Shown here: positions 1 through 64,000 of the stretch, piece after piece
Numbering within the stretch: the first letter of the stretch is position 1
Layout: the number at the start of each line of letters is the position of its first letter
DNA from: Pagrus major
Taxonomy: Eukaryota; Chordata; Actinopteri; Spariformes; Sparidae
DNA length: 64,000 nucleotides
Assembly: GCF_040436345.1 (NCBI RefSeq)
Contig: NC_133234.1
Location: forward strand, 8,308,446 to 8,372,445
Direction of reading: 5' to 3'
Made by a program: the position numbers and the translations under genes
Notes under the pieces: model-generated
Databases searched by the model: none
Seen by the model: the letters and a program-made list of their open reading frames with translations, nothing else
What the model was told of the DNA's origin: nothing

Positions 1-1205
1 GTTCTCAGTGTGAAAGCTTTAGGGTTGAAAAGACAGGAAAGATTAAAAAATGACACATTTCTAGTCACCTGCTCACTTCTGCCTGCCAAGTCAACCAGCC
101 ACCCCCACCTAATCAAACCAGCTCTGCTCACCTGGTCTCACAGCTGCTCCCGATCACCTGTTAACCCAGTATATATACCCCAGCCTCACTGATACTCTGT
201 TCCTTGTTTCCATGTTTCCTTATTGCGCTTGTGTTTTTGCTAACGGGACTTTTATTTCTCCTATGTACCCGCCAACCATCCACCACGTGAGCTCTTATGA
301 AATCATCACTAAGCTATCCTGCTGTCTCACCTTTTCTTCTGCATTTGGGTCCAACCCCTGTTGCTCACTTACCAGACGTTACACCAAGTGCCAAACGAGC
401 TGCTCTATTTTGAGCAACCTGCAGCTTTTTCTGGTCGGATTTTGAAGCTGATGACCAGATTACAGGGCGGTATTCTAGGTGAGACAGGATCGGTCAATGA
501 ATGAGTGATTTGATTATTGTGGGAGGGATGATTCCTCTTCCCATCTTAATGACTACATTATTTATATATTCAGACCAGGATAGTGAGCTATCAGGAGTTA
601 CACCCGGAAGTTTTAATGTGTTTACTTGTTTAATATTATTGGTGCCTATTGCCAGTTTTCTAAACCCACTTGTATACTGTATGTCTCTCAGGGCTTTAGC
701 TGGAGAACCAGTTAAATCTTGGTCCGATATTGTGGCACTGTACGAAGTGGAGTCATCAGCATACATTGATGTTTTTTGCGTACACTGGCAGGTCATTGGT
801 GAAGATGGAATATAACAAAGTCCCCAGGCAGCTGCCTTGTGGAGTCCCACGTAGCATCAGATCTTAGTTTGCCTCAAAGGTCATAGGTTAAATATCGTAA
901 TATCACAAGCTACTCCAAAATGCAAAGAAATATAAAAGCTTTCTTCAATGTTTTACAATACAAAATTAAAACTTCCTGTTCCTAAAATATTAACTTTTCG
1001 GAATAAGAGATACAACTTTGTTTTCATTGCTGATGAGTGTATTATTCAATTTCTATACAATACAATTAATAGATTCTCCTAATCATTTAAGTTACACATC
1101 AAGGACTCTAAAAGTCATATTACTCATTAACACACTTTGTACAAGGAGGAAAGGCAGCATGGTTAAAAACCCACATGTCGGGCCACAGCGAATGGAGAAA
1201 AGCAT
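1..1205 (-). pseudogene. Unit A1 chemokine gene remnant lacking exon 2
   Basis: Exon 1 is at 1136-1205 (70 nt, phase 1 end). It encodes a 23-residue signal peptide starting MLFSIRCGPTCGF and ending LVQ; its last exonic base is A where other units have G, before GTGTGT. The 5' end of exon 3 is at 1-16, after a CCCTAAAG acceptor. Between them, where exon 2 should lie, a LINE 3' fragment (to about 850) is joined directly to intron 1 sequence. The CC core is therefore missing, and exon 1 joined to exon 3 would be out of frame (phase 1 to phase 2). I call it a pseudogene, although the exon 3 could serve the exon 2 of unit B1 upstream. Confidence 0.7.
60..850 (-). mobile_element. LINE 3' fragment (reverse transcriptase to 3' end), unit A1
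   Basis: Minus-strand frame 494-850 encodes reverse-transcriptase palm sequence with the catalytic YADD (SMYADDSTSY), then the thumb region (KLPGVTPDSSLSW). Downstream sequence to about 60 is shared with the longer copy in B'. The protein matches the CR1/L2/Rex-like non-LTR elements common in fish. It is cut at its 5' side at about 850, where it abuts chemokine intron 1; that cut removed exon 2. Confidence 0.75.
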
Positions 1206-1279
1206 CCTGGGTCCAAATATGACAGTGAGTGAATAATTAATAACGTTATTCTGAACACTCACTGGTCCAACTCTTGGTG

Positions 1280-1382
1280 TGAACAGTGATGCTCTGTTGT
1301 AAAAGAAGAAACTTCCTTGATATAAATGAGATGAGCATGAGGGAAAGAGTGCACCATCATTCCAGAGAAAGAGGAACAAGAG
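1280..1382 (-). promoter_or_regulatory. A1 promoter copy
   Basis: TATAAA at 1321-1326 (context tgatataaatga), ETS-like motif at about 1366-1380. It sits before the A1 signal-peptide exon, which has no exon 2 to join. Equivalent copies are at 21920-22022 (A2) and 41672-41775 (A3). Confidence 0.4.
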
Positions 1383-1703
1383 TGTGGCCTGAAAGCAACC
1401 GAGGTAGTAGCTTCAGTTCCACGTTCAAAAACGTCTGAAGGCAAGATAAAAGAGTGAACATGTCTCACACCTTTTGTGTAAAAAAAAAGTCTTGAAGTCA
1501 TGAAAAGTATTGCGTTTATATTTTTGTTGAGCACATTGCTTCGGCTCAGACACCAGTACTCTGACTGCTTCTACAAACTGGGTGGGTGCCGACTGCTATC
1601 AACTGTAGGTAATGCATTCACTGTGACCCTACTTCAAAAAACCTGAACTAACCCTTGCAGCAAATGGTGAACCAACATAAACAGAATTTTTTGAGTAGTG
1701 TAT

Positions 1704-1882
1704 CACTGCTCAAAAAATTAAGGGAACACTTAATCATCACAGTATCACACTAAGTCAGTTAACTTCAGGGATGTGAATCAATTTCACCTGCTTTGGTACA
1801 AATGAAAGTGACAACAAGTGCAATGGAGAGGCAAAAGCAAGACAACCTCCACAAAGGGAATAGTTTTGCATATGTGTCTCTG
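1704..1882. mobile_element. Second Tc1/mariner-like terminus, unit A1
   Basis: Begins CACTGCTCAAAAAATTAAGG after a TAT and continues with sequence typical of a different fish Tc1-family end. An inverted copy of the terminus (AATTTTTTGAGTAGTG, 1685-1700) abuts it head to head. Counterparts are at 22344-22516 (A2) and 42098-42270 (A3). Confidence 0.6.
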
Positions 1883-2001
1883 TAAACACTTGCAGTAAAC
1901 AGTGATGCTCTGACTTGCAAGAAGAAACTTCCTTGGTTACAAACGAGGTCAACTTGAAGGGACAAACACACACTCATTTCAGAGAAAGAGGAACAAGACA
2001 A
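1880..2001 (-). promoter_or_regulatory. Decayed second promoter block, unit A1
   Basis: Repeats the core promoter (GCAAGTCAGAGCATCACTG, spacer, then ETS-like AAAGAGGAAC) about 0.6 kb upstream of the first copy, but the TATA position reads GTTTGTAACC and no signal-peptide exon follows. The A2 and A3 equivalents are at 22568-22692 and 42320-42446. Confidence 0.35.
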
Positions 2002-2199
2002 ACACTTTTATTTTTTGGGTGACTACTCAATTATTTTGTGATTATATTTTCTCCCTATAGGGATAAAACATATATCTGTAGGTAGATATATTGTCTCTAG
2101 TGATTGTGTGATGTGTTGAAGTCACTGAGAGACACTGTTTTAAAGGGTTGGTTTGGATTCACCAAAGTCACACAATCACACAAACAAACAGGTTGAGGC

Positions 2200-2394
2200 C
2201 GCCACAGAGCAGCAACTCCCATGTCCTGCTGAGACAAAATGACTGTTTTTTGCAATGGAGTCTGGTGGCTTTAAAGAAAGCGACACAATGACTACAGTTC
2301 CACATTTGGAAAGGTCTGATGGCAAGACAGAAGAGTGAAAATATGTCACACCTTTTGTGTTCAAGTCATGAAAAGTGTTGCGTTTGGAGACCAT
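2200..2394 (+). repeat. Shared upstream block with Tc1 terminus, unit A1
   Basis: Holds the recurrent mini-frame MESGGFKESDTMTTVPHLER (ATG at 2255) followed by a shortened Tc1 terminus (cacaccttttgtgttcaagt). The block exists in one or two versions per unit: 5066-5140, 10600-10680, 14825-14908, 22950-23030, 30190-30272, 34416-34499, 42700-42788, 45724-45810, 53990-54077 and 58247-58330. Confidence 0.4.
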
Positions 2395-2769
2395 GTGGAG
2401 AAGATAATGCCAATAAATGCCATGTTGTTTGGGAATGACCCTCTATTATACCTTACTCGATTTTGTCGAGTAATAATACTGTATCCTATAAATCCCTTGG
2501 TTCTCGCTACAGACTTTAAATTGTTCATTTGTTCACATGATCATAAGTGTTTGGATGTCCTCCATTAGGAGGAAAAGGACTCTGATAACTGGAAAAAAGA
2601 AAACAAACCTGGACTTGTCTTCGAGTATTCCTGCTGTATGACTATAAATGAGATCACATAGGGTTTGCATCTGTGGTACGGAGTTCTTGGACTGCATTGT
2701 ATGTCTAGAAGACATTATACAGGATGTAATTTGTGGAAGGAATTATGTATTTTGATATCATACCCATAC
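2395..2769. other. B-specific segment without recognised gene
   Basis: Starts at gagaccatgtggag where the shared upstream block ends and runs to the LINE break. It contains a perfect hairpin TACTCGA-ttttg-TCGAGTA (about 2455-2473). It is repeated at about 23090-23468 and 42840-43223. I see no exon, promoter or transposon signature. Confidence 0.4.
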
Positions 2770-3450
2770 ATATTGCCAGTTTTCTCAACCCACTCATATG
2801 CTGTATGTCTCTCAGGGCTTTAGCTGGAGAACCAGTTAAATCTTGGCCTGATATTGTGGCACTGTATGAAGTGATGTCATCAGCATACATTGATATTTTT
2901 TGCACACACTGGCAGGTCATTGGTGAAAATGGAGTATAACAAAGTTCCCAGGCAGCTGCCTTGTGGAATCCTAAAGTCAGTGACAGTCCAGTATGAGAAG
3001 CTGGTATTAAAAAAGACTTTCTCCCTAAGAGATCATTTTTGAACCATGAATTTACATTGGATGTAAAACCATAACAGTGTAACGTGCCAATAAGCAAGGT
3101 TGGTTCTATCAGGTTGAATGCCGCACTAAAATCCAACATTACAGCTCCCACTTGTTATCCATGCTTGTTAGCCAATATGACGTTGTTACCTCCTTTCAGG
3201 ATTTTGGTCTTCCTTGACAAAGCAATCAAATTATAATCACGTAATCCAACTGGGCTACTAGGGAGACAGTTTGAGAACAGTATTCCCAAGAGTTGTTTAA
3301 AACAAGGTCTAGACATGTAGAAGTAGCTATTTCCCCACTGCTACCAATCTTTATGCAAAGCATCACCTCCTGACTTAGCAAACAAACATTACCTAGCAAA
3401 TAAGCTAGCCTAACTAAATTTCTTCCATCATAAGCCACATATTTAGCACA
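2770..3450 (-). mobile_element. LINE fragment (endonuclease end plus RT), unit B1
   Basis: Reads from the C-terminal endonuclease segment (SSPVGLRDYN, then SRKTKILKGG) into RT motif AVMLDFSAAFNLIEP, GFHKAAAWELC and YADDITSY. It breaks at LRKLAI (about 2770), where unrelated sequence begins. The region between endonuclease and RT palm is missing, so this is an internally deleted relic. Confidence 0.75.
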
Positions 3451-4397
3451 CATACACTAAAGTGGTATTGATCTTCTCATCTAACTCTGAAAGAAATCCA
3501 AGAAGTGTCTTTCCCAGCATGTCAACTATCACTGTTGTGCCAAAGTTGCTTTCATTCATATCATTCTTTGTTGTCTGCTCATGATCAGCTGTGCCGACTA
3601 GGTGACACTGCCTAACACACCATGAGATAATGGACACAAGATGCAGCTTTTGTGAATGTAATCTACTACCCTATACTTACACATAAGCATGTACACCACA
3701 ACCCCAAATTGTGTTCTCCTTTTGTTCAAAGCAGGCAGTTCGTTCGTTTGAGGCTGCCATACAGCAGTCAGGAGCAGGTCCTAGAGGTGCCTCCTGATTC
3801 ACGATGAGCACAGGAATCACTGCAATGCACAGAACAACAGTGAATACTATTATTAAATGTATGTATAGGAAAATATTCTTTCAGGACAGCTTTTTTATTA
3901 AGAGCAACAATCTGTTAAATGTTTGTAGGTTGATTCCCCGCCAAAAGTTACATTTTTAGTATTTACAAAGAAATAGAAATTACTTAAATAGCACTTCTGA
4001 TACAGATATATCCTGTTAATTAGTGAGTTGTACGGACATAAGTGGAGTTTGCTGAACCAAACCTAACTAACAATCTTTTAAGGCAATTGTGGGACCAGAA
4101 CACCCACACCCAGTGCCTCGACAGAAAAACTTAGCCTAGCCTACATCTGTTCTCACCCGTTAACTAGTACAGTGCTAAATCATAGGCTTGATATCGTAAT
4201 ATCACCAGCTACTCCAAAATGCAAAGAAATAAAAAAAACTTTCTTCATTACTATACAATACAAAATTAAATAAAATTTGCGGAATACGAGATACAAATTT
4301 CTTTTCATCACTGATGAGTGTATTATTCAATTTCTATGCAATATATTTCAATAGATTCTCCTAATCATAATCAACGTATTTCCCTCCAAACTATTTC

Positions 4398-4678
4398 TTT
4401 AAATGGGCTCTATGTAACAATTTGTAGCACATAGTACATGTATTAATCACTTTCTTATTGCCCATATGTGAGTGTATTGCAACATGACATGAAAAATGAG
4501 ACCTTCCCAGCCCGTGGACGATACGTTAGAGTTATTTAAATGCTGCTGGACTGTCTCTGTCCCTTTGTAAGGTTTTCAGTTTTCAGTTTCCTTACTTTAT
4601 GCAAATTCTCTCACATGCCTCCCTGCTAACATAAACTAACGACCAGCACAACACGGACATTTCACAGAGCCCCTTTAA
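4398..4678. mobile_element. MITE-like element with terminal inverted repeats, unit B1
   Basis: The left end TTTAAATGGGCTCTATGTAA is complementary, with mismatches, to the right end (ttcacagagcccctttaa). Length is about 281 bp, with no coding potential. Counterparts are at about 25105-25379 and 48903-49177. Ends of this kind are common in fish non-autonomous DNA transposons. Confidence 0.5.
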
Positions 4679-5210
4679 CTGGAACGTACAGGTGATTTAG
4701 ACTGGAACATGATTCTGAACCAGCTTTGCATCATTACCATGTTGGCAGTATCATGCAAATGAAACTACTTTGCCTTCACCCAGAACCCTCCACTCTTTTG
4801 CCAGCAAAAATCCTCCAAAAAAAAGTCAAAACGCATCATCTGGAGGAATTTATGGCTGTTGTAAGTGCTATTATGGTTAAACAAGTATTTTTTAAGTATC
4901 TTTTCTCCCTATGGGGATTTAAAAAAAATGTCTGTAGCTGGATGCATTGTCTTCAGTACTTGTGTGATGGGATGAAGTCACTGAGAGACACATTAATCGA
5001 AGTCACAAGCAAACTAACAGATCGAGGCAGTGGCTCCCGCGTGCCGCTGAGATAAAATTAGTCAATGGAGTCTGGCAGCTTATAGAAAGCAATATAATGG
5101 TTTCAGTTCCCCATCAGAAGGGTGTAATGGCTGGGTAAAGCAGTGACAATATTCTAAATAAAGTGTACACTTAAGCTGATTTTGATTTGATTAATTACAC
5201 AAATTGAAGT

Positions 5211-5932
5211 TAAACATCTAAGACTTTCCGTGCTCAGAAAAGGCTTATTATGCTCACATTTTTAGCAGAAATATATATTAAAATCTGTGTAAGTGAGCAC
5301 TTCTTTATAAGTTAATCCATCCATGTAGCATATAAAGATTCTGACTGAACAACACGATTATTATAATGTCCAAAATTGAATGAAATATTCATTTGACTAC
5401 CATACGCCATAACTGTCTCAACTGTTGTTTCTGAGAATTTGGCGGTACATCCAACTGGCCTCACATCTGGCTTCTTCACTTGCAAGATCGTCTGAGACAA
5501 GCCACCCAGAGAGCTGTAGCAACAGTTGGATTGCAAAACTAAAGAATACATGCACGACTGGCTCAGGCGAAGCCCATCTGCGTCATCCACACCAGGGTCT
5601 TGACCTGACTGCTGTTCATTACTGGAACCGACTTGAGTGGGCAAACGCTCACCTTGAAGGCGTCGGGCTCTTTGGAGAAGCATTCGCTTGTCAGAGGAAT
5701 CCTGGTTTTCACTGTACCAGGCTGACAGCAGATACCATGAAGAGATCCAGAGGCCCATTGGTCTGCATTTCATCCTCCGTCATCAGCTTGTGTTGCATTA
5801 TTATGCACGGCCCCATGTAGCAAGGATCCCCAACCCCCGGACCAGCCTTTTATTGTGACCAGTCCAAAGCCCACCTGTGTAATAATCGTGCTGTTCAATC
5901 AGCATCTTGATATGCCACACTGTAGGCTTGCA
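5211..5932 (+). mobile_element. Tc1/mariner-like relic, unit B1
   Basis: The left part resembles the subterminal region of common fish Tc1 elements (gtaagtgagcacttct, then aatccatcc), and the right part the opposite end (cagcatcttgatatgccaca). Between are decayed transposase pieces on the plus strand: RYIQLASH-like N-terminal region, NRLEWANAHL, a run ending RNPGF where DESRF-type sequence is expected, and, frameshifted, LVLHYYARPHVA for the HDNARPH block. Frameshifts and deletions make it inactive. Confidence 0.75.
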
Positions 5933-6339
5933 TGATCATCTGCTTTTGATTTGCCCAAAACAAAACATAACATACTGAGCACTCCTTTTTGGACTGTATT
6001 ACCCTTTTTATTTTGTATATGATTACGTCATATGATCTTCTTAATAATTTAAATTTAGTGAATTTAAAATAACCAAAGGTTTTCAGATGACAGTGAAATA
6101 GCTGCAATGATGAACACTGTACTTTTTCAAATTCAGTTTACTTTTCTCAGCTGTCCTTAAATAACTCTAGAGGTCGCTAGTAGTGAAAGTTACACTCACC
6201 TTGTTCAGGGAGGATCAGCAGTATAGTCAAATACATGAGACGCACTCCAAACCAAACGGAGAAAGGCATGCTGGGCACAGTTATGATAACGAAGAGCCGG
6301 TCCTGGAAACTCTCTGAACAAGCTTTTGTTGAATCATGT

Positions 6340-6385
6340 ATATGAAGACAGTTGTAAAGGCGGAGTGTTTGTTATAGAGGGAATG
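6340..6385 (-). promoter_or_regulatory. Possible separate promoter for exon 1B
   Basis: Minus-strand CTCTATAAC at about 6372-6380 lies about 105 nt upstream of the exon 1B start codon. The flanking sequence shows no match to the shared A/C/D/E promoter block, so exon 1B would have its own control. A single weak box only. Confidence 0.25.
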
Positions 6386-6752
6386 TGTGCTCGGGGAGAT
6401 GAGATAAGATGATCTGCAGGGAGCCACAGCGCAGCTGCAGAGAGGGGAAAACATCTTGCTTGGCAGTCCAAGGCACTAAAGCTAATTCAAAATAATATAA
6501 ATAAATAGATCTGATGGGAAGGTGTTCTGTAGCCTGACATCTATTAGAGACAGATATGAGATCATTTGTCTCATAATCAGACACAATACATTGTATCAAA
6601 TACTTGGTTGATGAAGTGCTGGAGTGACATAACCAGACGTGTTTTGTAAATACAATGGTATCATCCAAGTCTCCAGAACATGGCAGCCCGAAATTTATTT
6701 GAAAATAAGTTATTTACACCCTTTTAGGTGAAACCTTCACTGTAATGACTAA

Positions 6753-6801
6753 TCTATCTGTCTGTCTGTCCGTCCGTCCGTCCGTCCGTCTATCTATCTA
6801 T
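6753..6801. repeat. Tetranucleotide microsatellite (TCTA/TCTG/TCCG)
   Basis: Runs of tctg, then tccg, then tcta units. It lies in the block 1-specific segment upstream of exon 1B and has no counterpart in the other blocks. Confidence 0.9.
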
Positions 6802-6892
6802 GACTGAAATGTGCTTGATGTGGAAGCATTTCGAGATGTGATTGACTTTAGCTTACTAATTGCATTAGTTGTGCACTATTAGATGAATCCCC

Positions 6893-7075
6893 TGCTTCAC
6901 TGCTCCCCCGCACCAGTAGTGAGAGCTGAGGTCCAGAGGTGAAGATTTGGGCCTGTTCTGGTTTATTGGGCTCGCTCATGGCTGACATGTGGTCATAGTA
7001 TAGGTGGTCATGGTATGGGTCATAGCTGGGTGTTTTGGGACACTGCGACCAAAAAGCAGACATGGCCATTATGAA
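6893..7075. repeat. Dispersed GGCCCAxACCAGACAG repeat, C1 3' flank
   Basis: Block with ttattgggctcgctcatggc and tggtcatggtatgg, found 100-250 bp beyond the poly(A) signals of most units: 11571-11720, 16431-16640, 19912-20070, 31161-31315, 36155-36365, 39661-39825, 54962-55115, 59985-60180 and 63450-63610. Frames inside it (for example RIGPVLIYWVRSWLT) are not conserved in reading frame between copies, so it is taken as non-coding. Confidence 0.5.
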
Positions 7076-7472
7076 AATGATGTAAAGGCTTGATTAAATT
7101 TTAATTACTATCATTGAATCCTATTTTAATTTGACTATCAAAACATTTTAAATTAATTCTAAAAGTAATTTTATAATTGAACCAGGTATCAAGATATTAT
7201 GTGCTCCAGACATTAAGGATATTTTATTCGTTTTTTTTTCACTTACTGTAAATACATATACAATACAGAGACAACAGTGGTCAAAACTCTTTATTAGGTT
7301 AGAAGACAATAAAAATCCATACAAAGATATTATTACCATATCTAAACGAACCTATAAGCAGAAAAAGTTGATAATTTGCTCTAAATTATTAGAAAACAAG
7401 AGAAAAACAGTGTCAAGATTTCTGCGTAGAGAGTCGTGATGCATTATCTTCAGTGTGGCCGTTGAACACCCG

Positions 7473-9523
7473 TCAGAGGATTTGGCAATGTATTCCTCTC
7501 TGGGGGAGAAGAATTTAAGGTAAAAGTCCCATATTGTAGGAATTAAAATGTTGTTTATGCTGTATCTGATTTGAAGTCAAAAGCTTGAGTTCCTAAATTC
7601 TTATTAAGAAGTGAGACAAACAAAACTCACAACAGACTGTATTACCACATGAACTCACTAAGCATTCTTAGAGAGAACTGATAGAAATTAAGGAGGAAAA
7701 AACAAAATATAAAAATGAAAACAAATATTGTGATATCATGAACAGGTTGTGAAATTGGACTTACTTGTTCTAATCTCTTGAGTCTTTGGGGGAGCCACAA
7801 GGCTTCTGGGTCCACACACAAATCCTTTGTCTCAGTGCGAAACCTTTAGGGTTGAAAAGACAGGAAAGAATAAAAAATCAAGCAAAACAAAAACAGTATG
7901 TAGACCTATAGCAAGAACAGAAAAGACTTCTTTTTTTTATCAAATATGATCAATTGCCCTAAACAAAAATATCTACAGTAACAAAATGGTGAATTTAGGC
8001 CTGTGAAAGTAGATGTCACAAATGTCTGTACTAATTTAAGGATCCCCATTAGAAGCACATGGATGTGAATCTTGTCTTCCTGGGGTCCCGAACATGAAAA
8101 TACAATATTGACATGCAATTACAAAGTACAAAGTGTTTAAACAATGCAGCTCCCACTTGTTATCCATGCTTGTAAGCCAATATGACGTTGTTACCTCCTT
8201 TCAGGATTTTGGTCTTTCTCGACTAAGCAACCAAATTATGATCACGTAATCCAACTGGGCTACTAGGGAGACCAGAACAGTGTTCCCAAGAGATGTTGAA
8301 AACAAGGTCTATACATGTAGAAGAAGTAGCTATTTCCCCACTGCTACCAATCTTTATGATAAGCATCACCTCCAGACTTAGCAAACAAACATTACCTAGC
8401 AAATAAGCTAGCCCAGCTAAATTTCTTCCATCATAAGCCACACATTTAGCACACATACGAAAGTGGTATTGATCTTCTCATCTAACTCTCTGAAATAAAG
8501 CCAGTAAGTGTATATCCCAGCATGTCAAACTATCACTGTTGTGCCAAAGTTTCTCTTTCATTCATATTATTCTTTGTTGTCTGCTCATGATCAGCTGTGT
8601 TGGCTAGGTGTCGCCGCCTAACACACCATGAGATAATGGACACAAGATGAAGCTTTTGTGAATGTAATCTACAACCCTATACTTACATATAAGCATGTAC
8701 TCTACAACCCCGAATTGAGTTCTCCTTTTGTTCAAAGCAGGCGGTGACAGGTTCGTTAAAGGCGCCCTTTGAGGCTGCCATACAGCAGTCGGGAACAGGT
8801 CCTGGTTCTCCGTGCGCGCCCTTGTTAGAAATCACTGCAATGCACAGAACAACAGCCATACTATTATAAAGTCTAGGAATAGGAAAATATTCTTTCATGA
8901 CAGCTTTTTATTAAGAGCGAAAATCTGTTAAGTGTTGCTAGTTTGATTCCCTGCCAAAGTTAAATTTTAGTATTTATGAAGAAAAACAAACAAACAAAAT
9001 GTGAGAGTGGTTTTGATCTTCTCATATAACTCTCAGCAATAAAGTCAATTAACATATTTCCCAAAATGCTGAACAAACCTTTACTGACAATCTTTTAAAG
9101 CAATTATGGGACCAGAACACCAACACCCAGTGCCTCGACAGAAAAACTTAGCCTAGCCTACATCTGTTCTCACCTGTTAACTAGTACAGTGTGAAATCAT
9201 AGGCTTGATATCGTAATATCACAGACTACTCTGAAATGCAAAGGAATAAAAAACTTTCTCCATTTATTATACAATACAAAATTAAAACTTGCTTTTCCTA
9301 AAATATTAACATTTCAGAATAAGAGATACAACTTTCTTTTCATCACTGATGAGTGTATTATTCAATTTCTATACAATACAATTCAATAGATTCTCCTAAT
9401 CATTTAAGTTACACATCAAGGACTCTAAAAGTCATTAGTAGCCATTAACACACCTTGTGCATGGAGGAAAGGCAGCATGGTCAAACACAAAAGTGTCGGT
9501 CCACAGCGAATGGAGAAAGGCAT
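7473..9523 (-). CDS. CC chemokine, six-cysteine type (unit C1), 4 exons, 107 aa
   Basis: Exons 9454-9523, 8687-8834, 7765-7843 and 7473-7499 (coding), phases 1/2/0, all introns GT-AG, 324 nt in total. Residues 1-23 form a signal peptide (MPFSIRCGPTLLC to HAQ), so the product should be secreted and act on a G-protein-coupled chemokine receptor. The adjacent CC pair is residues 40-41, the third and fourth canonical Cys are 67 (RGCRVHAY) and 82 (LCVDPEALW), and Trp89 precedes a basic C-terminal helix. Extra cysteines are 56 (TACFEQ) and 104 (RGIHCQIL, stop). ATG has A at -3. AATAAA lies at 7290-7295; the promoter is near 9640. Intron 2 holds a LINE endonuclease scrap. CC spacing (14 residues to the extra Cys, 24 to the next) recalls CCL1, but orthology is not assigned. 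Confidence 0.85.
8148..8460 (-). mobile_element. LINE endonuclease scrap in intron 2 of C1
   Basis: Frame 8223-8456 encodes the endonuclease C-terminus (TCIDLVFNISWEHCSG, then SSPVGLRDHN, the degenerate SDH motif). The RT part is absent, leaving a tail cut at about 8148. Confidence 0.6.
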
Positions 9524-9596
9524 CCTGGGTCCCAATATGACAGTGAGTCAATAATTAATAGCGTTATTCTGAACACTCACTGGTCCAACCCTTGGT

Positions 9597-9695
9597 GTGA
9601 ACAGTGATGCTCTGTCTTGCAAGAAGAAACCTCCTTGGTATAAATGAGGTGAAAGAGTGCACTGTCACTCCAGAGAAAGAGGAACAAGAGTGTGT
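9597..9695 (-). promoter_or_regulatory. C1 core promoter and 5' UTR start
   Basis: On the minus strand: an ETS/PU.1-like AAAGAGGAAC run inside 9671-9690, then CATTTATACC (TATA-like, 9639-9644), then about 30 nt later GCAAGACAGAGCATCACTG, a plausible start region. The same arrangement recurs before every signal-peptide exon of types A and C-E. The start site is inferred from spacing only. Confidence 0.5.
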
Positions 9696-9754
9696 GAGTC
9701 ACTGAGAGACACTGGGCAATGATCCCAAAGGTCACAAAGCGATCACCAAGATCG

Positions 9755-9770
9755 TTTTTTTTTTTTTTTT
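9755..9770. repeat. Poly-T tract after a short hairpin, unit C1
   Basis: CGATC-accaa-GATCG followed by 16 T. The C2 and C3 counterparts (about 29347 and 53117) differ in T number, as expected for a slipping homopolymer. Confidence 0.7.
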
Positions 9771-9774
9771 ACAA

Positions 9775-52886: not shown

Positions 52887-52954
52887 CCTGGGTCCCAATA
52901 TGACAGTGAGTGAATAATAATTAGCGTTATTCTGAACACACTGGTCCAACCCTT

Positions 52955-53055: not shown

Positions 53056-55327
53056 TGAGTCACTGAGAGACACTGGGCAATGATCCCAAAGGTCACAAAG
53101 CGATCACCAGGATCGTTTTTTTTTTTTTTTTTTTACAAATTTCTGCTCAGAATAATAATAATATATAAGGGGATAAGTTGCATTTATATTTTTATAGAGT
53201 ATATGTTTTGCTGATGCCCGTTAGCTTCCTTCTGCTTTTATTTCTGCTGCTTCTCCAAACTGGGGGCGTGCTGACTGCCATCTATTGTAGGCGTTACATT
53301 GACCATGGATAAGTACCTGATATGACCCCACTTCAAAAACCCAACTAACCTCTTAAGCAACAGGTGAATCATATATTTTCGTAAAATGTATAACTGTTAA
53401 TCTCTCACACTGCAGACACTTGTAAACTCATTAAAGAGTAAAATATCAACTGAAATGTAAATGTCACTTTGGGTCAAAAGGTAATGACAGGTAATTAGTG
53501 TGTAATGAGCTGTTAGTTAATGCTTATCACTGTATCAACTAATATTAATGGCATATATTGTTAACAGTTAATTAACTCTGTACAGTATCTGGTTATTGTG
53601 TATAGTAAAGAGCCTTTTTCTAGACTCTCACTGGTAAACACTTGCAGTAAACAGTGATGCTCTGACTTGCAAGAAGAAACTTCCTTGGTTACAAACGAGG
53701 TGAGTTTGAAGGGTCAAACACACACTCACTCCAGAGAAAGAGGAACAACACAAACACTTTTTTTGATTGTGGCTACCCAATTATTTTGTGATGTTTTCTC
53801 CCTATAAGGATAAAAAATATAACTGAAGGTAGATATATTGTCTTCAGTAATTGCGCGATGTGTTGAAGTCACTGAAAGAAACTGTTTTGGTTTGGATTTA
53901 CCAAAGTCACACAATCACACAAACAAACAGGTCAAGGCCGCGGCAGAGCAGCAACTCCAATGTCCGGCTGAGATAAAATTATTGTTTTTGTCAAAGGAGT
54001 CTTGTGGCCTGAAAACAGCTGACATAATGTCTTCAGTTCCACGTTCAGAAAGGTCTGAAGGCAAGATAAAAGAGTGAACATGTCTCACACCTTTTGTGTA
54101 AGAAAAAACAAAAGTCTTGAAGTCATGAAAAGTATTGCGTTTATATTTTTGTTGAGCACATTGCTTCGGCTCCGACACCAGTACTCTGACTGTTTCTACA
54201 AACTGGGTGGGTGCCGACTGCTATCAACTGTAGGTGATACATTGACTGTAGATATGACCCCACTTCAAAAAACCTGAACTAACCCTTGAGGCAAATGGTG
54301 TTTTAAATGTATAGCTGAGGAATACCTGATTCTCTCACACTGCAGTAAACTCATTAAAGAGTAAAATATTAACTGAAATGTAAATGTCACTCGAGGTCAA
54401 AAACAGCAAAGAAGGATGACAGAGAGCAGAGACCTAAGAGCCCAACACCCAAACCCACAAAGGTCTAGATGGGCCGGCTCGCCACAAATATTATGAAGGT
54501 GAAGCCGCCAAGGTAAACAGCATTTTTATTCACATTACTTTTTTTTATGTTGGCATTACATGTATGGAGGAACATCACAACATGTTAGGTGTATTTAACA
54601 CAATTACAGGTAACAGACAAACAGTCAGGCACAGCACAGAACTGTTTTCAGTTTTGTGAGTAGATTATTTGTAGTGCAGTTTTTGCTGCTTTTTCTCAAA
54701 TATCTTAAAATAATAGTGCAAGATTATGACATGGTGTCAGACCCTACTACTGAGATAAAAATAAATTACTCTATTTGTCAATGGAGTCTGGTGGCTTTGA
54801 AGAAAGCAGCATAAAGGCTTCAGTTCCCTGCCAGAAAGGCCTGACTGCAAGGTAAAATAAGTGAAAATATTAGAAATAGTCACTTTAACTGATGGCTGAG
54901 ATTTACTCAACAAAAACACTTTTTTGCTCCCATTTCTCATTCAACCCAATATTCAAATGACGTGATCCGGCCCACACCAGACAGACTGGCCCAAATTCAG
55001 AATTGGGCCAGTTCTGATTTATTGGGTTCGCTCTTGGCTGATGTGGTCATGTTATGGCTCAGATTTGGAAAATAGGAGTGGAGCCACCCAAATACCATCA
55101 TTCCATGAGGTATGTGTATGTGTGTATGTGCTATTTCATTCAGTATTTTCTTCACTGTGAATACATTATCAGCACAGAGAAAACAATGATCAAAACTCTT
55201 TATTAGTTTAGAAGACAGTAACGATTCATGCAAAGATATTATTGACATATCTAACATGTTTGGCATGCCAACATTTCTGCGTAGAAGGTCCTGATGCATT
55301 ATCTTCAGTGTGGCTGTTAAACACCCG

Positions 55328-56952
55328 TTAGACGATTTGGCAACGTATTCCTCTCTGGGGGAGAAGAATTTTAGTTAAAAGTCCCATATTGTAGGAATTA
55401 AAATGTCTTTATTTGTGCTGTATCTGATTTGAAGTCAAAACCTGGACTTACTTCCTCTAATCTGTTGAGTCTTTGGGGGATCCACCAGGCTCCTGGGTCC
55501 ACACACCAATCCTTTGTCTCAGTGCGAAAGCTTCAGGGTTGAAAAGACAGGAAAGAGTAAAAAACAAGCAAAATAAAAAAAGTATGTAGGCCTATAGCAA
55601 GAACAGAAAAAAGAAAGAAATGATCAAATATGATCAATATGACTTAAACAAATATCTACAGTAGCAAAATGGTGAATTTAGGCGCACAAAGTAGATGATA
55701 CAGATGTTTATGTTTATTTAAGGATCCCCATCAGAAGCACATGGATGAGCACATTTAGCAAACGTACAAGAAAGTGGTATTGATCTTCTCATCTAACTCT
55801 GAAAGAAAGCCAATAAGTGTCTTTCCCAGCATGTCAAACTATCACTGTTGTGCCAAAGTTTCTCTTTCGCTCATATTATTCTTTGTTGTCTGCTCATGAT
55901 CAGCTGTGTCGGCTAGGTGACACCGCCTAACACACCGTGAGATAATGGACACAAGATGAAGCTTGTGTGAATGTAATCTACTACCCTATACTTACATATA
56001 AGCATGTATTTTACAGCCTGGAAATGTGTTGTCCTTTTGTTCAAAGCAGGCAGTGACAGGTTTGTTAATGGTGCCTTTTGAGACTTCCACACAGCAGGGG
56101 GGACCAGGTATTGGGATTCTGCCCAGACTCCTGGAAACCTGAGGGACCACTGCAATGCACAGAACAACAGAGAATACTATTATTAAGTCTAGGAATAGGA
56201 ACAAATTCTTTCGGGACAGCTTTATTTTTAAGAGTAAAAATCTGTTAAATGTTGCTAGTTTGATTGAATTTGAAGTTAAATTTGAGTATTTACGAAGAAA
56301 AACAAAGAGAAGGCTTAAATAGCACTTCTGATACAGATATAACCTGTTAATAAGTGAGTTGTACAGACATGAGAGTGGTTTTGATCTTCTCATATAACTC
56401 TCAGCAATAAGTGAATCAACATATTTCCCAAAATGCTGAACAAACCCTAACTAACAATCTTTTAAAGCAATTGTGGGAGCAGAACATCCACACCCAGTAC
56501 CTCGACAGAAAAACTTAGCCTAGCCTACATCTGTTCTCACCCGTTAACTAGTACAGTGCAGCTGAAAGCCTTTAGAAGACCAAATATCCTACAGCAGCAT
56601 CAGATCTTCATTTGCCTCAAAGGTCATAGGTTAAATATCGTAATATCACAAGCTACTCCAAAATGCAAAGAAATATAAAAGCTTAGTCCATTATTATACA
56701 ATACAAAATTAAACTAACTTCCTGTTCCTAAAATATTAACTTTTCGGAATAAGAGATACAACTTTGTTTTCATTGCTGATGAGTGTATTATTCAATTTCT
56801 ATACAAAACAATTCAATAGATTCTCCTAATCATTTAAGTTACACATCAAGGACTCTAAAAGTCATATTAGTCATTAACACACCTTGTGCATGGAGGAAAG
56901 GCAGCATGGTCAAACACAAAAGTGTCGGGCCACAGCGAATGGAGAAAGGCAT
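55328..56952 (-). CDS. CC chemokine, six-cysteine type (unit D3), 4 exons, 109 aa
   Basis: Exons 56883-56952, 55996-56149, 55452-55530 and 55328-55354. The pre-CC segment is VVPQVSRSLGRIPIPGPP, with three changes from D2. The core is KGTINKPVTAC, FEQKDNTFPGCKIHAY, so the conserved Arg-Val after the third Cys is Lys-Ile here. Exon 3 is DWCVDPGAWWIPQRLNRLEE and the terminus RGIRCQIV ends in TAA instead of TGA. AATAAA is at 55199-55204, TATA at 57066-57071. D3 is visibly more diverged from D1 and D2 than those are from each other. Confidence 0.85.
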
Positions 56953-57019
56953 CCTGGGTCCAAATATGACAGTGAGTGAATAATTTATACCGTTATTCTG
57001 AACACACTGGTCCAACCCT

Positions 57020-57120
57020 TGGCGTAAACAGTGATGCTCTGTCTTGCAAGAAGAAACCTCCTTGGTATAAATGAGGTGAAAGAGTGCACTGTCACTCCAG
57101 AGAAAGAGGAACAAGAGTGT
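57020..57120 (-). promoter_or_regulatory. D3 core promoter
   Basis: TATA-like box 57066-57071, ETS-like motif at about 57102-57114. The spacer is the short C-type form, unlike D1 and D2. Confidence 0.47.
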
Positions 57121-57229
57121 GTGATGTGTTGAAATCACTGAGAGACACATTCATCGAAGTCACTGAATAACACAAACAAACTAACAGATCGAGGCTCCTG
57201 TGTCTGGTGGGTATGAATTTGACAGGTGG

Positions 57230-57605
57230 TCAATTCATACATATTGCACCATTTAAAATGACAATGAGTTTTTTTAGGTGGCTAAAATACACTCAAAAAA
57301 ATATAGACACAACCAGTTTGTACTGCAGATATTGTGTATGGTCTTGTGTTGGCGAGTGGTTTGCTAATTTCAATGTTGATGATGGGCATAACAGGGTGCC
57401 CATGGTGGTCATCAGGTTATGTTACAGGCAGGCAGAAGCTATGGAGAACAAACACAGGAGCATCTTATTGATGTCAGTGTGAATTCACAGATGAGGCCCA
57501 TTGTCATGCATTTCATCCGCCACCATCACCTCATGTTGCATCATAATGCACGGCCCCATGTCGCAATTATACCAAAGGTCCTAAGGTGTTCACCAACATC
57601 GAGTT
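57230..57605 (+). mobile_element. Tc1/mariner-like transposase relic, unit D3
   Basis: Counterpart of 13840-14215; LMLHHNARPHVA is preserved, and a 2-nt insertion near 57308 changes the upstream frame. Confidence 0.72.
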
Positions 57606-57980
57606 TGACAAATTTCTTCTGCTTTTACTTCTGCTTCTCCAAACTGGGGGCGTGCTGACTGCAATCTACTGTAGGCGTTACATTGACCATGGATAAGTAC
57701 CTGATTTAACCCCACTTTAAAAGACCCGAACTAACCCTTTAAGCAACAGGTGAATCATTTATTTTCAGAAAATGTATAACTGATAATCTCTCACACTGCA
57801 GTATCTGGTTATTGTGAATAATTAAGAGCCTTATTCTAGACTCTCACTGGTAAACACTTGCAGTAAACAGTGATGCTCTGACTTGCAAGAAGAAACTTCC
57901 TTGGTTACAAATGAGGTGAGCTTGAAGGGACAAACACACACTCATTCCAGAGAAAGAGGAACAAGACAAACACTTTTTTT

Positions 57981-58009
57981 GGGGGGGGTGGGGGTGGGGG
58001 GGGGGGGGG
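57981..58009. repeat. Poly-G tract
   Basis: A nearly pure G run with two single T interruptions, in the D3 second promoter region. The D1 and D2 equivalents read attttttgggtgactac, so the tract is a private expansion of a ttttttggg seed or a sequencing/assembly artefact. Confidence 0.85.
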
Positions 58010-60561
58010 TGACGACTACTCAATTATTTTGTGATAATCTTTTCTCCCTATAGGGATAAAACATATATCTGTAGGTAGATATATTGTCTCCAGTGATTGT
58101 GTGATGTGTTGAAGTCACTGAGAGACACTGTTTTAAAGGGTTGGTTTGGATTCACCGAAGTCACCGAATAACACAAACAAGCAGGTCGAGGCCGCCGCAG
58201 AGCAGCAACTCCCATGTCATGCTGAGATAAAATCATAATTTTTTGCAATGGAGCCTGGTGGCTTTAAAGAAAGCAACACAATGACTGCGGTTCCACATTT
58301 GAAAAGGTCTGATGGCAAGACAGAAGAGTGAAAATATGTCACACCTTCTGTGTGAACAAAAAAAGTCTCAGATCTTTAACTTCAAGTCATGAAAAGTGTT
58401 GCATTTATATATTTTTGCTTTGGCTCCTACACCAGTACTCCTGCTGCTTCTACAAACTTGGTGGGTGCTGCTATCCGACTGCTATCAACTGTAGATAAAA
58501 CATTGACTGTAGATATGAACCCACTTCAAAAAACCTGAACTAACCCTTGAGGCAAATGGTGTTTTAAATGTATAGCTGAGGAATACCTGATTCGCTCACA
58601 CTGCAGTAAACTCATTAAAGAGTAAAATAATAACTGAAATATAAATGTCACTCAAGGTCATAATCAGCAAAGGATGACAGAGAGCAGAGACCTAAGAGCC
58701 AAACACCCAAACCCACAAAGCTCTGGATGGGCTGGCTCACCAGAAATATTATGAAGGTGAAGCCATCAAGAAACATCACAACATGTTAGGTGTTTTTGCT
58801 GCTTTTTCTCAAATATCTTAACATAATAGTGCAAGATTATGACATGGTGTCAGACCCTACTGCTGAGATAAAAAAAAAAAAAAGAATGACTGGTTTTGTC
58901 AATGGAGTCTGGTGGCTTTGAAGAAAGCAGCTTAATGGCTTCAGTTCCCTGCCAGAAAGGCCTGACTGCAAGGTAAAGCAGTGAACATATTAAAAATTGT
59001 CACTTTAACTGATGGCTAAGATTTACTCAACAAAAACACTTTTTTGCTCCCATTTGTCACTCAAACCAAAATCTGTCGTACGTCTAACAATGTGCAATTT
59101 CCTTTTATAAATCCCAAATCAACCTGGAAATGTGCGCACATGGATCCGCCTCCTATACCGCCCTCTCCACACCCACATTCAACCATAAATGGTCAATGCA
59201 AAGTGCCTCATGAATGTTAATGCCTGGAAATTAGCTGCTGATTGATGGTTCTTTACAGTGAATCATGGCCACAACGAGAGAAAGACGAAGAAAATACATA
59301 CTTCTGGCACAGAGAACGAGGTGTTCGTTGGTGAGGTGGAGGTTACAAAACACATTTTCTATACGTTCATTCAAGTTGTCCTCTAGCAGTGTGAGGACAG
59401 TGACAGTCCGCGCAGTCCATGCAGCATTACGCACGAGGGGCACCACAGTATTCATGTGTACAGCGATCAGACTGACTGTTCCACTTGACAAAATGATCAG
59501 TGTTATCCCCAACCCCCACCCGATGATAATTTTGTCATCGAACAGTCCGGGCTTCTCTGCTGCACTCCAGGGGAGGGAATGTGATGGTGAGAGAGGCCTG
59601 AGGAAATATGATTTCAGATTTGAGTTGGCTTATATCTTTTACAATTTATTTTCTGGTTGCTGGTTTGGTTTATGATAATGTGGATCATTAAATAACATTT
59701 GCTATGAAGTGAAATCAATTGTGAGATGTATTATTATGCACAGAATGCCTCTCACGTTTAATTTCTACTATCTGCTTCAATTCAGCACCTCACCATTCGT
59801 GTCACCAATTCCCCTCGCCTCCAAAATGTTCGTAGGCATGGGTCAGAGTTTGCTTACAGGTGCGTGCATTCTCCCATCAAGTTTGTTTCTATAGATCACA
59901 ACATTTGCGTGGGAAGTGGCGCACACCTCTTTCAAGCCCAATTTTGTGCGTAGGCAAGCTTTATAAATGAGAGCCCTGATCTGGCCCGCACCAGACAGAT
60001 TCAGAAGATTCAGATTCAGATTTGGACCTGTTCTGGTTTATTCGGTTCGCTCTTGGCTGACATGTGGTCATGGTATGGCTCAGATACCAAACAGGAGTGG
60101 GCCACCCAAGTGCCGTCATTCCATGCGGTATGTGGGCTGGATGATCTGGGACATTGCTACCAAGAAGCAGACATGGCAATACTTTTTTAATGACATTTTC
60201 ATTACTATCATGGAGTCCTATTTTAATTTACCAATTAAAGATTTAAATGTATTCATAAGTAATTTTAAAACTGTACCAGGTATCAAGATATTATGTGCCC
60301 CAGACATTAAAGATATTTTATTCATGTATACTGTAAATACATTAATACACAGCACAGAGACAACGATGGTCAAAAATCTTTATTAGCTTGGAAGACAATA
60401 AAAATCCATACAAAGATATTATTACCATATCTAAATGTACCTATAAGCAGAGAAAGTTGATAATTTGCTCTAAATTATTAGAAAACAAGACGGAAACAGT
60501 GTCAACATTTCTGCGTAGATGGTCATAATGCATTATCTTCAGTGTGGCTGTTGAACATCCG

Positions 60562-62580
60562 TCAGAGGGTACGGCAACGTAGTCCTCTCTGTGGGAGAAG
60601 AATTTAAGGTAAAAGTCCCATATTGTAGGAAGGAAATTTTCTTTATTTATGCTGCATTTGATTTGAAGTCAAAACCTGGACTTACTTGTTCTAATCTCTT
60701 GAGTCTTCGGGGGATCCACCAGGCTCCTGGGTCCACACACCAATCCTTTGTCTCAGTGCGAAAGCTTCAGGGTTGAAAAGACAGGAAAGAGTAAAAAAAC
60801 AAGCAAAACAAAAACAGTATGTAGGCCTATAGCAAGAACAGAAAAAAGGAAAACATGTATCAAATATGATCAATGTGCCTTAAACAAAAATATCTACAGT
60901 AGCAAAATGGTGAATTTAGGCCCACAAAGTAGATGATACAGATGTTTATGTTTATTTAAGGATCCCCATCAGAAGCACAAGGCTGTGACTCTTGTCTTCC
61001 TGGGGTCCCGAACATAAAAATACAATACCGACATGCAATAAGAAAGCACTAAGTCTATTTAAACATCACAGCTCTCACTTGTTATCCATGCTTGTTAGCC
61101 AAGATGACGTTGTTACCTCCTTTCAGGATTTTGTTCTTCCTCGACAAAGCAACCGAATCATGATCAAGTAATCCAACTGGGCTACTAGGGAGACCAGAAC
61201 AGTGTTCCCAAGAGTTGTTGAAAACAAGGTCTAGACATGTACGAGAAGTAGCTATTTCCCCACTGCTACCAATCTTCATGCTATGCATCACCTCCTGACT
61301 TACAAACTTACAAACATTACCTAGCAAATAAACTAGCCCAGCTAACATTCTCCTGGCTTTAGTCACACATTTAGCACACATACACGAAAGTGGTATTGAT
61401 ATTCTCATCTAACTCTCTGAAATAAAGCCAATAAGTGTCTTTCCCAGCATGTCAAACTATCACTGTTGTGCCAAAGTTTCTCTCTCTTGTCATATTATTC
61501 TTTGTTGTCTGCTCATGATCAGCTGTGTCGACTAGGTGACACCGCCTAACACACCATGAAATAATGGACACAAGATGAAGCTTTTGTGAATGGAATCTAC
61601 TACCCTATACTTACATATAAGCATGTACTCTACAATGCTGAAATGTGTTTTCCTTTTGTTCAAAGCAGGCGATGACGGGTTTGTTAAAGGCCCCTTTTGA
61701 GGCTGCCATACAGCAGTCGGGAGCAGGTCCTGTTTGTCCATACTTGCCCTGGGCACGCGGAGAAATCACTGCAATGCACAGAACAACAGCAATACTATTA
61801 TTAAGTCTAGGAATAGGAAAAAGTTCTTTCAGGACAGCTTTATTTTTAAGAGTAAAAATCTGTTACATGTACCCAGTTTGATTCCCCGCCAAAGTTAAAT
61901 TTGAGTATTTACGAAGAAAAACAAAGAGAAGGCTTAAATAGCACTTCTGATACAGATATAACCTGTTAATAAGTGAGTTGTACAGACATGAGAGTGGTTT
62001 TGATCTTCTCATATAACTCTCAGCAATAAAGTGAATAAACATATTTCCCAAAATGCTGAACAAACCCTAACTAACAATCTTTTAAAGCAATTGTGGGACC
62101 AGAACACCCACACCCAGTGCCTCGGCAGAAAAACTTAGCCTAGCCTACATCTGTTCTCACCTGTTAACTAGTACAGTTGATACTACAGCTGATAGCCTGT
62201 AGAAGACCAAATATCCTACAGCAGCACCAGATCTTCATTTGCCTCAAAGGCCATAGGCTAAAATTTGTGATATCACAAGCTACTCCAAAATGCAAAGAAA
62301 TATAAAAACGTTCTCCATTATTATACAATACAAAATTGAAACTTCCTGTGCCTAAAATATTAACTTTTTTTCAGAATAAGAGATACAACTTTGTTTTCAT
62401 CACTGATGAGTGTATTATTCAATTTCTATACAGTACAATTCAATAGATTCTCCTAATCATTTAAGTTACATATCAAGGACTCTAAAAGTCATTATTAGTC
62501 ATTAACACACCTTGTACAAGGAGCAAAGGCAGCATGGTTAAACACCCACGTGTCGGGCCACAGCGAATGGAGAAAGGCAT
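60562..62580 (-). CDS. CC chemokine, six-cysteine type (unit E3), 4 exons, 109 aa
   Basis: Exons 62511-62580, 61615-61768, 60686-60764 and 60562-60588. The signal peptide is MPFSIRCGPTRGC...LLLVQ. The pre-CC segment is ISPRAQGKYGQTGPAPD: the E-type extra cysteine is replaced by Arg, restoring a six-Cys mature protein. The core is KGAFNKPVIAC, FEQKENTFQHCRVHAY, where the usual Pro-Gly before the third Cys is Gln-His. Exon 3 is DWCVDPGAWWIPRRLKRLEQ and exon 4 is RGLRCRTL, TGA. AATAAA is at 60379-60384, TATA at 62689-62694. The short 5' UTR form is shared with E1. Confidence 0.84.
61072..61385 (-). mobile_element. LINE endonuclease scrap in intron 2 of E3
   Basis: GLLDHDSVALSRKNKILKGG is legible in frame 61082-61408. 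A small local duplication (cttacaaacttacaaac) alters the start of the frame. Confidence 0.6.
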
Positions 62581-62644
62581 CCTGGGTCCTGGGTGAGTGA
62601 ATAACTAATACTGTTCTTCTGAACACTCACTGGTCCAACCCTTG

Positions 62645-62745
62645 GCGTAAACAGTGATGCTCTGTCTTGCAAGAAGAAACCTCCTTGGTATAAATGAGGT
62701 GAGAGAGTGCACTGTCACTCCAGAGAAAGAGGAACAAGAGTGTGT
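62645..62745 (-). promoter_or_regulatory. E3 core promoter
   Basis: TATA-like box 62689-62694, ETS-like motif at about 62724-62738, short spacer as in E1. Confidence 0.47.
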
Positions 62746-63820
62746 GATGTGTTGAAGTCACTGAGAGACACATTCAGCGAAGTCACTGAATAACACAAAC
62801 AAACTAATTGATCAAGGCAGTGGCTTTTATAGGCAGGCATAAACTATGGACATCAAACCCAGGATTTTTTTGATGTCAATGTGAATTCACAGATGAGGCC
62901 CATTGTCGTGCATTTCATCCGCTGCAATAATAAACATTAACTAACATTTAATTGACAGTACTCTGACTGCTTCTTCCAAACTGGGTGGGTGCCGACTGCT
63001 ATCAACTGTATGTAATACATTGACTGTAGATATGACCCCACTTCAAAGAACCTGAACTAACCCTTGCAGCAAATGGTGATCCATGTACACTGCTCAAAAA
63101 ATTATCACAGCATAACACCTAGTCAGTTAAACTTCAGGGATATCAATCTGTCCATTTAGGAAGCACAAGTGATTGTGAATCAATTTCACCTGCTTTGGTG
63201 CAAATGAAAGTGACAACAGGTGCAATGGAAAGGCAAAAGCAAGACAACCCCTAAAAAGGGAATAGTCAATGGAGTCTGGTGGCTTTGAAGAAAGCAGCAT
63301 AAAAGCTTCAGTTCCCAGCCAGAAAGGCCTGACTACAAGGTAAAATAAGTGAAAATATTAGAAATAGTCACTTTAACTGATGGCTAAGATTTACTCAACA
63401 AAAACACTTTTTTGCTCCCATTTCTCATTCAAACTAATATTCAAATGACGTGATCCGGCCCACACCAGACAGATTCAGCAGATTCAAATTCAGAATTGGG
63501 CCAGTTCTGATTTATTGGGTTCGCTCTTGGCTGACGTGGTCATGTTATGGCTCAGATTTGGAAAACAGGAGTGGAGCCACCCAAATACCATCATTCCATG
63601 AGGTATGTGTATGTGTGTATGTGCTATTTCATTCAGTATTTTCTTCACTGTGAATACATTATCAGCACAGAGAAAACAATGCTCAAAACTCTTTATTAGT
63701 TTAGAAGACAGTAACGATTCATGCAAAGATATTATTGACATATCTAACAGGTTTGACATGTCAACATTTCTGCGTAGAAGGTCGTGATGCATTATCTTCA
63801 GTGTGGCTGTTGAACACCCG

Positions 63821-63847
63821 TCAGACGATTTGGCAACGTATTCCTCT
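63821..63847 (-). CDS. Unit A4 chemokine exon 4 (partial gene at window end)
   Basis: The acceptor TTCTCCCCCAG is followed by the 27-nt terminal coding exon RGIRCQIV, TGA. AATAAA at 63692-63697 marks the 3' end. By position this is the next A unit, whose exon 3 should lie just past the window. Upstream exons are not visible, so whether it also lacks exon 2 cannot be told here. Confidence 0.7.
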   Translation of the reverse strand, partial: RGIRCQIV

Positions 63848-64000
63848 CTGGGGGAGAAGAATTTTAGTTAAAAGTCCCACATTGTAGGAATTAAAATGTC
63901 TTTATTTGTGCTGTATCTGATTTGAAGTCAAAAGCTTGAGTTCCTAAATACTTACTAAAAAGTGAGAGAAAAAAACTCCCAACAGACTGTATTATGGCAT

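Follow-up and report, generated by a model that had tools for sequence, protein, structure and literature searches.

A head-to-tail array of multi-gene CC chemokine blocks in Pagrus major, with patchy divergence between blocks and a variable exon 2

How does a set of closely related chemokine genes come to be arranged as a repeat whose unit is itself a row of genes, and by what means have its copies come to differ? The question is raised by a 64-kb stretch of contig NC_133234.1 in one assembly of Pagrus major (the window, below), where genes for CC chemokines with six cysteines lie in a direct, head-to-tail higher-order repeat with a unit of about 20 kb, represented by three blocks and the edge of a fourth. 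Nine of the genes are intact. We consider it probable that the stretch represents a vertebrate CC chemokine cluster whose row of five monomer types, E-A-B-C-D, was amplified as a block of about 20 kb and then patchily exchanged, and that the N-terminal part of the B type has diverged in the manner that diversifying selection would produce.

The block structure is seen directly when the window is compared with itself by BLAST, much as in the self dot-plot that the original prediction had proposed as a check of its claim of a five-monomer unit seen three times. Long collinear direct repeats, each with an E-value of 0, join the blocks at 94.8-97.9% identity over long segments: 23466-40203 matches 47259-64000 at 95.6%, 15897-24795 matches 35626-44556 at 97.9%, 7226-15894 matches 26806-35508 at 97.7% and 50605-59324 at 94.8%, and 1-6111 matches 20634-26807 at 96.8%. 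Collinear matches of 4-17 kb rule out a chance origin of the repeats. Both this comparison and the exon-2 tree described below bear out five monomers in three successive units; their order on the plus strand, predicted as A-B-C-D-E, is instead E-A-B-C-D, and every gene lies on the minus strand. With borders and phase that are arbitrary and fixed by the start of the window, the blocks as delimited by self-BLAST and sliding divergence are:

1..20633, minus strand: block 1 (E1-A1-B1-C1-D1)
20634..40386, minus strand: block 2 (E2-A2-B2-C2-D2)
40387..64000, minus strand: block 3 (E3-A3-A4-B3-C3-D3), which runs off the window and is about 4 kb longer

The predicted 20-kb size of the block is right as an approximation, but the period is not constant. 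The E exon 1 copies are spaced by 20,641 and then 19,753 bases and the B exon 1 copies by 19,592 and then 23,771 bases, the period being uneven because block 3 is about 4 kb longer and includes a further A copy. The roughly 1.1 kb at 6112-7225 occur in block 1 only, and blocks 2 and 3 have a common junction at that place. Block 1 lacks about 117 bases that blocks 2 and 3 have (15894-15897, compared with 35508-35626 and 59324-59442). As had been foreseen, the array continues past both edges of the window, the left edge cutting exon 3 of E1 and the right edge showing no more of a gene than its exon 4.

Exon searches recovered, all on the minus strand, 13 copies of exon 1, 13 of exon 2, 12 complete copies of exon 3 and a thirteenth truncated at the start of the window, and 12 of exon 4. 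An initial motif scan for CC exons gave many false matches on both strands, and the models were fixed by homology among exons. Nine intact genes with four coding exons result, three copies each of the B, C and D types, encoding 107-109 residues without an internal stop in any of the nine. The prediction of nine intact and seven partial genes on one strand is matched by these nine together with seven fragments (four of A and three of E), to which a further exon 4 at 63847 and a further exon 1 at 6269 are to be added. A unit of five genes is not what was found, only three of the five monomers in each E-A-B-C-D unit (B, C and D) being intact. In the list that follows, exon coordinates descend in keeping with the minus strand, and the first coding base is the highest coordinate of each model; scores are for the Pfam chemokine domain PF00048.

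7473..9523, minus strand: gene B1, 107 aa, exons 9523-9454, 8834-8687, 7843-7765, 7499-7473; 24.3 bits
11934..13546, minus strand: gene C1, 109 aa, exons 13546-13477, 12757-12604, 12136-12058, 11960-11934; 27.5 bits
17033..19047, minus strand: gene D1, 109 aa, exons 19047-18978, 18237-18084, 17235-17157, 17059-17033; 25.4 bits
27053..29115, minus strand: gene B2, 107 aa, exons 29115-29046, 28426-28279, 27427-27349, 27079-27053; 22.4 bits
31525..33137, minus strand: gene C2, 109 aa, exons 33137-33068, 32348-32195, 31727-31649, 31551-31525; 27.5 bits
36758..38772, minus strand: gene D2, 109 aa, exons 38772-38703, 37962-37809, 36960-36882, 36784-36758; 29.2 bits
50851..52886, minus strand: gene B3, 108 aa, with an E-like exon 3, exons 52886-52817, 52221-52074, 51228-51147, 50877-50851; 33.4 bits
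55328..56952, minus strand: gene C3, 109 aa, exons 56952-56883, 56149-55996, 55530-55452, 55354-55328; 26.7 bits
60562..62580, minus strand: gene D3, 109 aa, exons 62580-62511, 61768-61615, 60764-60686, 60588-60562; 27.1 bits

Exon 1 is hydrophobic in all nine models and ends in phase 1, with GTGTGT as its donor; the donor of exons 2 and 3 is GTAAGT, and exon 4 supplies eight further residues that include the last cysteine. All nine proteins pass the gathering cut-off for PF00048 (22.4-33.4 bits against 21.3), and in all nine the CC motif and the third and fourth conserved cysteines (C40, C41, C67 and C82) as well as two extra mature cysteines (C56 in exon 2 and C104 in exon 4) are invariant, in agreement with the predicted six-cysteine, four-exon genes; D1 and D2 have one further cysteine in the N-terminal part. 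The layout and spacing of the six cysteines are, we assume, like those of human CCL1. The nine products would be expected to be small and secreted and to act on leukocytes by way of their chemokine receptors. Among PDB sequences the best, though weak, match is CCL21 (E 3.6e-4 with D1 and 2.6e-5 with a profile of the nine proteins), with CCL19 among the next matches to D1 at a similarly weak E of 0.0011. None of the nine has a long C-terminal tail of the CCL21 type, each stopping three residues past its last cysteine; the CCL21 chain 2l4n has 113 residues and its match ends at 69. PDB entry 4hcs, presumably a zebrafish CX chemokine, matches profile positions 69-107, including the last cysteine, with RLKEKGVTC facing ends like RLEQRGIRC here.

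The relative ages of types and blocks emerge from a tree of the 13 exon 2 copies with 300 bases on each side (four of A and three each of B, C and D). Types A, B, C and D each form a single clade across blocks with support of 100/99 to 100/100, which is what block amplification predicts, and the types are therefore older than the blocks. Divergence between the blocks is patchy. The mean mismatch in the five segments compared is 1.7-3.6%; between blocks 1 and 2, however, each of the seven 500-base steps of 11226-14725 (3.5 kb) shows 0.0-0.4% difference, as against 3.4-4.2% in the four that make up 7226-9225. The 3.5 kb of near-identity show recent exchange or duplication of that part; the recent, continuing copy-number change of the original prediction is not supported in the form given. 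Groupings also conflict, in that the absence of 6112-7225 and the presence of the ~117 bases unite blocks 2 and 3, whereas the C and D genes unite blocks 1 and 2. Exchange between blocks after their duplication would be the simplest reading of these patterns.

One such exchange may be preserved in gene B3, where a patch with the outline of a gene-conversion tract covers exon 3:

51149..51328, minus strand: patch over B3 exon 3, at most about 180 bases, a candidate gene-conversion tract delimited by sequence comparison

Exon 3 of B3 is 2.4-3.7% from those of E2 and E3 and 16.5% from those of B1 and B2, and both outer sides of the patch are B-like. Ahead of the exon, the patch departs from E2 and E3 at 42 of 60 sites and is no nearer to B than to C or D; the donor would therefore be either an E of earlier date or a copy beyond the window. 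Gene conversion is the cause we favour for this patch.

Blocks that are a few percent apart, lie side by side and carry introns offer a built-in yardstick for exon change, with which one can ask whether the receptor-facing end of duplicated chemokines is diverging by selection or by exchange of exons. Variable sites were counted per region among the three copies of each type and compared by Fisher's test with non-coding sites, in 15 exon tests, three of which stay below 0.05 once multiplied by 15. The excess is seen in B and D. In the part of B exon 2 that encodes the N-terminal residues before the CC motif, 14 of 47 sites vary against 115 of 2143 non-coding sites (p=1.9e-7), and in B exon 3 14 of 79 vary against the same reference (p=1.2e-4); for D, the exon 2 core has 14/101 against 85/2116 (p=1e-4) and exon 4 has 4/27 against 85/2116 (p=0.023). 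The strong N-terminal signal is confined to B, whose copies are 19-23% apart in this part, 1.7-2.3% apart in the 300 bases upstream and 3.7-7.0% apart downstream. Divergence is about ten times faster there than in the upstream intron, and consists mostly of amino-acid changes (pN 0.264 and pS 0.063, with 8.5-9.5 non-synonymous and 0.5-1.5 synonymous differences per pair). Additionally, scans of 100 bases rank exon 2 of B or D within the top four peaks in 5/5 segment comparisons. Exon 2 of the A monomers, which in blocks 2 and 3 is not surrounded by a complete gene, served as a control with its flanks as reference; its N-terminal part is not clearly raised among the four copies (3/53 against 16/717, p=0.14), and without A3 the figures are 3/53 against 9/720 (p=0.043).

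A history in several steps would account for these features. The E-A-B-C-D row of monomers would have been built by gene duplication and partial loss; next, the entire 20-kb row would have multiplied head to tail, for which unequal crossing-over between misaligned blocks is the simplest route; and blocks would later have exchanged sequence, with patchy divergence and the transfer of exon-sized pieces from monomer to monomer as the result. The N-terminal part of B diverges fast and mostly with change of amino acids, as diversifying selection would give, and the remainder of exon 2 in D is also over-variable, without an excess of amino-acid changes.

We infer, rather than regard as proven, that diversifying selection caused the N-terminal excess in B, and a number of observations weigh against this reading or against the gene models beneath it. 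Type C has no significant excess in any exon (lowest p 0.092), exon 1 is not in significant excess for B, C or D, and the N-terminal part of D exon 2 falls short of significance (4/53, p=0.17). The pS of 0.063 in B comes from few synonymous sites, 13-16 per N-terminal comparison, and in D from the CC motif onward pS exceeds pN (0.088 against 0.063), so that the D signal is not clearly selective. Sites within one conversion tract are not independent, which makes the Fisher p-values too small if conversion acted, and non-coding 100-base peaks as high as exon 2 also occur. The core of A exon 2 is itself raised (6/83 against 16/717, p=0.02; p=0.0024 without A3), and A exon 2 was rejected for that reason as a clean control against a mutational hotspot; this milder excess in a fragment makes a weaker case for selection alone behind the B and D signals. 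It points to conversion, to a raised mutation rate of exon 2 or to an A that was coding until lately, and does not isolate selection as the cause. As for the models, the GTGTGT and GTAAGT donors were search keys and their uniformity is partly by construction, and some PF00048 scores are just 1-4 bits over the cut-off. It is accordingly a serious possibility, although one we doubt, that the exon 2 differences in B and D arose not by selection but by conversion from copies outside the window or by a raised mutation rate of exon 2. The patch in B3 indicates that exon-sized pieces do move, an array that passes both edges implies donors out of sight, the over-variability of the core extends to A and in D comes without bias to amino-acid change, and the N-terminal part of B1 is nearer to that of D3 (21.3%) than to that of B2 (23.4%). 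Yet D3, at 21.3%, is the nearest N-terminal part of any other type to B1, which leaves no close donor within the window, and neither the mainly non-synonymous character of the B changes nor the lack of a clear rise in the N-terminal part of A is what this alternative would lead one to expect.

The array as a whole has also to be weighed against other origins. Diploid assemblies are known to suffer from false tandem duplication, and the near-identity of blocks 1 and 2 over 3.5 kb would suit haplotypes or misassembled copies set in tandem in error; three blocks, however, exceed two haplotypes, and the blocks are separated by a mean mismatch of 1.7-3.6%, by specific length differences of ~1.1 kb, 117 bases and 4 kb, and by divergence that is patchy and not uniform, all of which renders an assembly error improbable. 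A decaying pseudogene array with no functional product would fit the incomplete state of two of the five monomers (A and E), the want of the usual exon 3 donor in A4 and the weak reverse-transcriptase-like fragments in A and E, but is decidedly improbable given nine models free of internal stops, six mature cysteines that are invariant in all nine despite divergence elsewhere, and TATA-like and poly-A-like signals that have been kept. That the blocks grew separately by single-gene duplications, and are alike by chance or homogenisation, is scarcely credible when the same types cluster across blocks with strong support and intergenic DNA is collinear over 4-17 kb, even though single-gene duplication must have made the types originally and successive tandem duplication is how the chemokine clusters of zebrafish are described as having grown (PMC2416438).

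Amplification of whole E-A-B-C-D blocks with subsequent exchange invites a bolder conjecture, which we rate as rather unlikely, namely that the array is a germline generator of diversity in which exon-sized pieces, including those of the A and E fragments, are gene-converted into intact genes and selection favours new N-terminal arms, such that the fragments would be kept as cassettes and would not be junk. Fragments that do act as donors would have a counterpart in the pseudogene donors of other diversified gene families. Diversifying selection on exon 2, should it be real, would suggest that the ligand is caught up in an arms race, for instance against chemokine-binding proteins of pathogens.

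Multi-gene block duplication of CC chemokines is already known, contrary to the original prediction that took such amplification to be exceptional for these genes; less ordinary are the rate excess in exon 2 and the E-like patch in B3. For the CC cluster on zebrafish chromosome 25, Nomiyama et al. 2008 (PMC2416438) report repeats of several genes each, direct or inverted, and attribute them to recent segmental duplication. That cluster resembles the present array in its block repeats of several CC chemokine genes and differs in that the blocks here are all head to tail and that two of the five monomers are fragments. Human CCL3L/CCL4L is likewise a multi-gene chemokine segment present in several copies by segmental duplication, with complex homologous recombination and a gene number that differs between people, whereas the present array is known from one assembly; CCL3L1, CCL3L3 and CCL4L2 have three exons, as against four coding exons here (PMC2628739). 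Extra cysteines, as found here, are reported in the same zebrafish study for the CX chemokines of chromosome 24 and neighbouring CC genes, but the CX proteins lack one N-terminal cysteine where the CC pair is intact in all nine present proteins, and the CX genes and five CC neighbours have five coding exons and not four (PMC2416438). Further papers deal with chemokine or immune genes of fish that were duplicated in tandem or in particular lineages (PMC3464592, PMC4690017, PMC3568907), and another places determinants of receptor selectivity in both structured and unstructured protein regions (PMC12435897). A narrow literature search returned no paper that combines higher-order repeat, gene cluster and chemokine.

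The fragment monomers fill the remainder of each block. A monomers retain exon 2, and E monomers retain exon 1 and, where these lie inside the window, exons 3 and 4. The following were located by exon searches:

1136..1205, minus strand: E1, exon 1; of its exon 3 only positions 16-1 lie within the window
3681..3819, minus strand: A1, exon 2, which lacks 15 bases relative to A4 but stays in frame
6200..6269, minus strand: divergent exon 1 positioned for A1, with donor GTGAGT in phase 1
20272..21846, minus strand: E2, exon 1 at 21846-21777, exon 3 at 20649-20568, exon 4 from 20298
24376..24526, minus strand: A2, an orphan exon 2
40025..41599, minus strand: E3, exon 1 at 41599-41530, exon 3 at 40402-40321, exon 4 from 40051
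44137..44287, minus strand: A3, an orphan exon 2
46548..48324, minus strand: A4, exon 2 at 48324-48171 followed by an E-like exon 3 at 46629-46548
63821..63847, minus strand: exon 4 of a fourth monomer, assigned to E because it lies above D3

The divergent exon 1 (6269-6200) lies upstream of A1 within the ~1.1 kb exclusive to block 1, and together with A1 and exons 3 and 4 of E1 could form a candidate tenth gene, whose exon 3 runs off the window. The same searches found no exon 2 in E2 or E3, and omitting exon 2 would break the frame, because exon 1 ends in phase 1 and the first base of exon 3 completes a codon. For A4 these searches found neither an exon 1 nor an exon 4 belonging to it, and its exon 3 is without the GTAAGT donor present in other copies. 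In the A4 unit, 47259-48700 is A-like (98.3% to block 2) and 46625-47464 is E-like (95.6%), and the two parts overlap by about 206 bases inside a repeat common to A and E; such a junction would be the expected outcome of recombination within that repeat. The E label of the exon 4 at 63847 is positional, its sequence being about equally near to C (2.0-4.0%) and E (2.6%). In-frame length changes are also seen among the A exon 2 copies (3681-3819, 24376-24526, 44137-44287 and 48171-48324).

Flanking signals are regular across the array. The TATA-like motif CATTTATA occurs in 12/12 upstream flanks of exon 1 in B, C, D and E and is absent before the divergent exon 1 at 6269, and a poly-A-like AATAAAG lies 150 or 204 bases past the start of exon 4 in 12/12; the retention of both suggests that these may be intact transcription units.

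Mobile-element traces are slight. A Pfam scan for mobile elements covered 20634-30533, about half a block, in six frames with stops read as residues, and gave just a weak RVT_1 and a weak Baculo_p24 match (the latter presumably due to chance), both below cut-off. The first corresponds to the following fragment:

23607..23867, minus strand: truncated reverse-transcriptase-like fragment downstream of A2 exon 2 (PF00078, a weak 18.5 bits, below the cut-off of 29.6)

The fragment belongs to a weakly reverse-transcriptase-like repeat family, D19, with copies at 647, 2771, 21288, 23468, 41041, 43224 and 47261, and all seven of these listed copies fall within A or E monomers. Scans of the window returned no Rfam match at gathering scores and no tRNA. 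A tandem-repeat search found two short arrays, one of them a G-rich run at 57980-58011 in block 3. The spacers between genes carry ten copies of another repeat, D6 (at 2021, 10366, 14591, 22714, 29956, 34182, 42470, 45496, 53760 and 58014), and copies of a further family, D17. Finally, a spacer holds interspersed repeat-like sequence at 16301-16489, which we take to resemble remnants of fish mobile elements.

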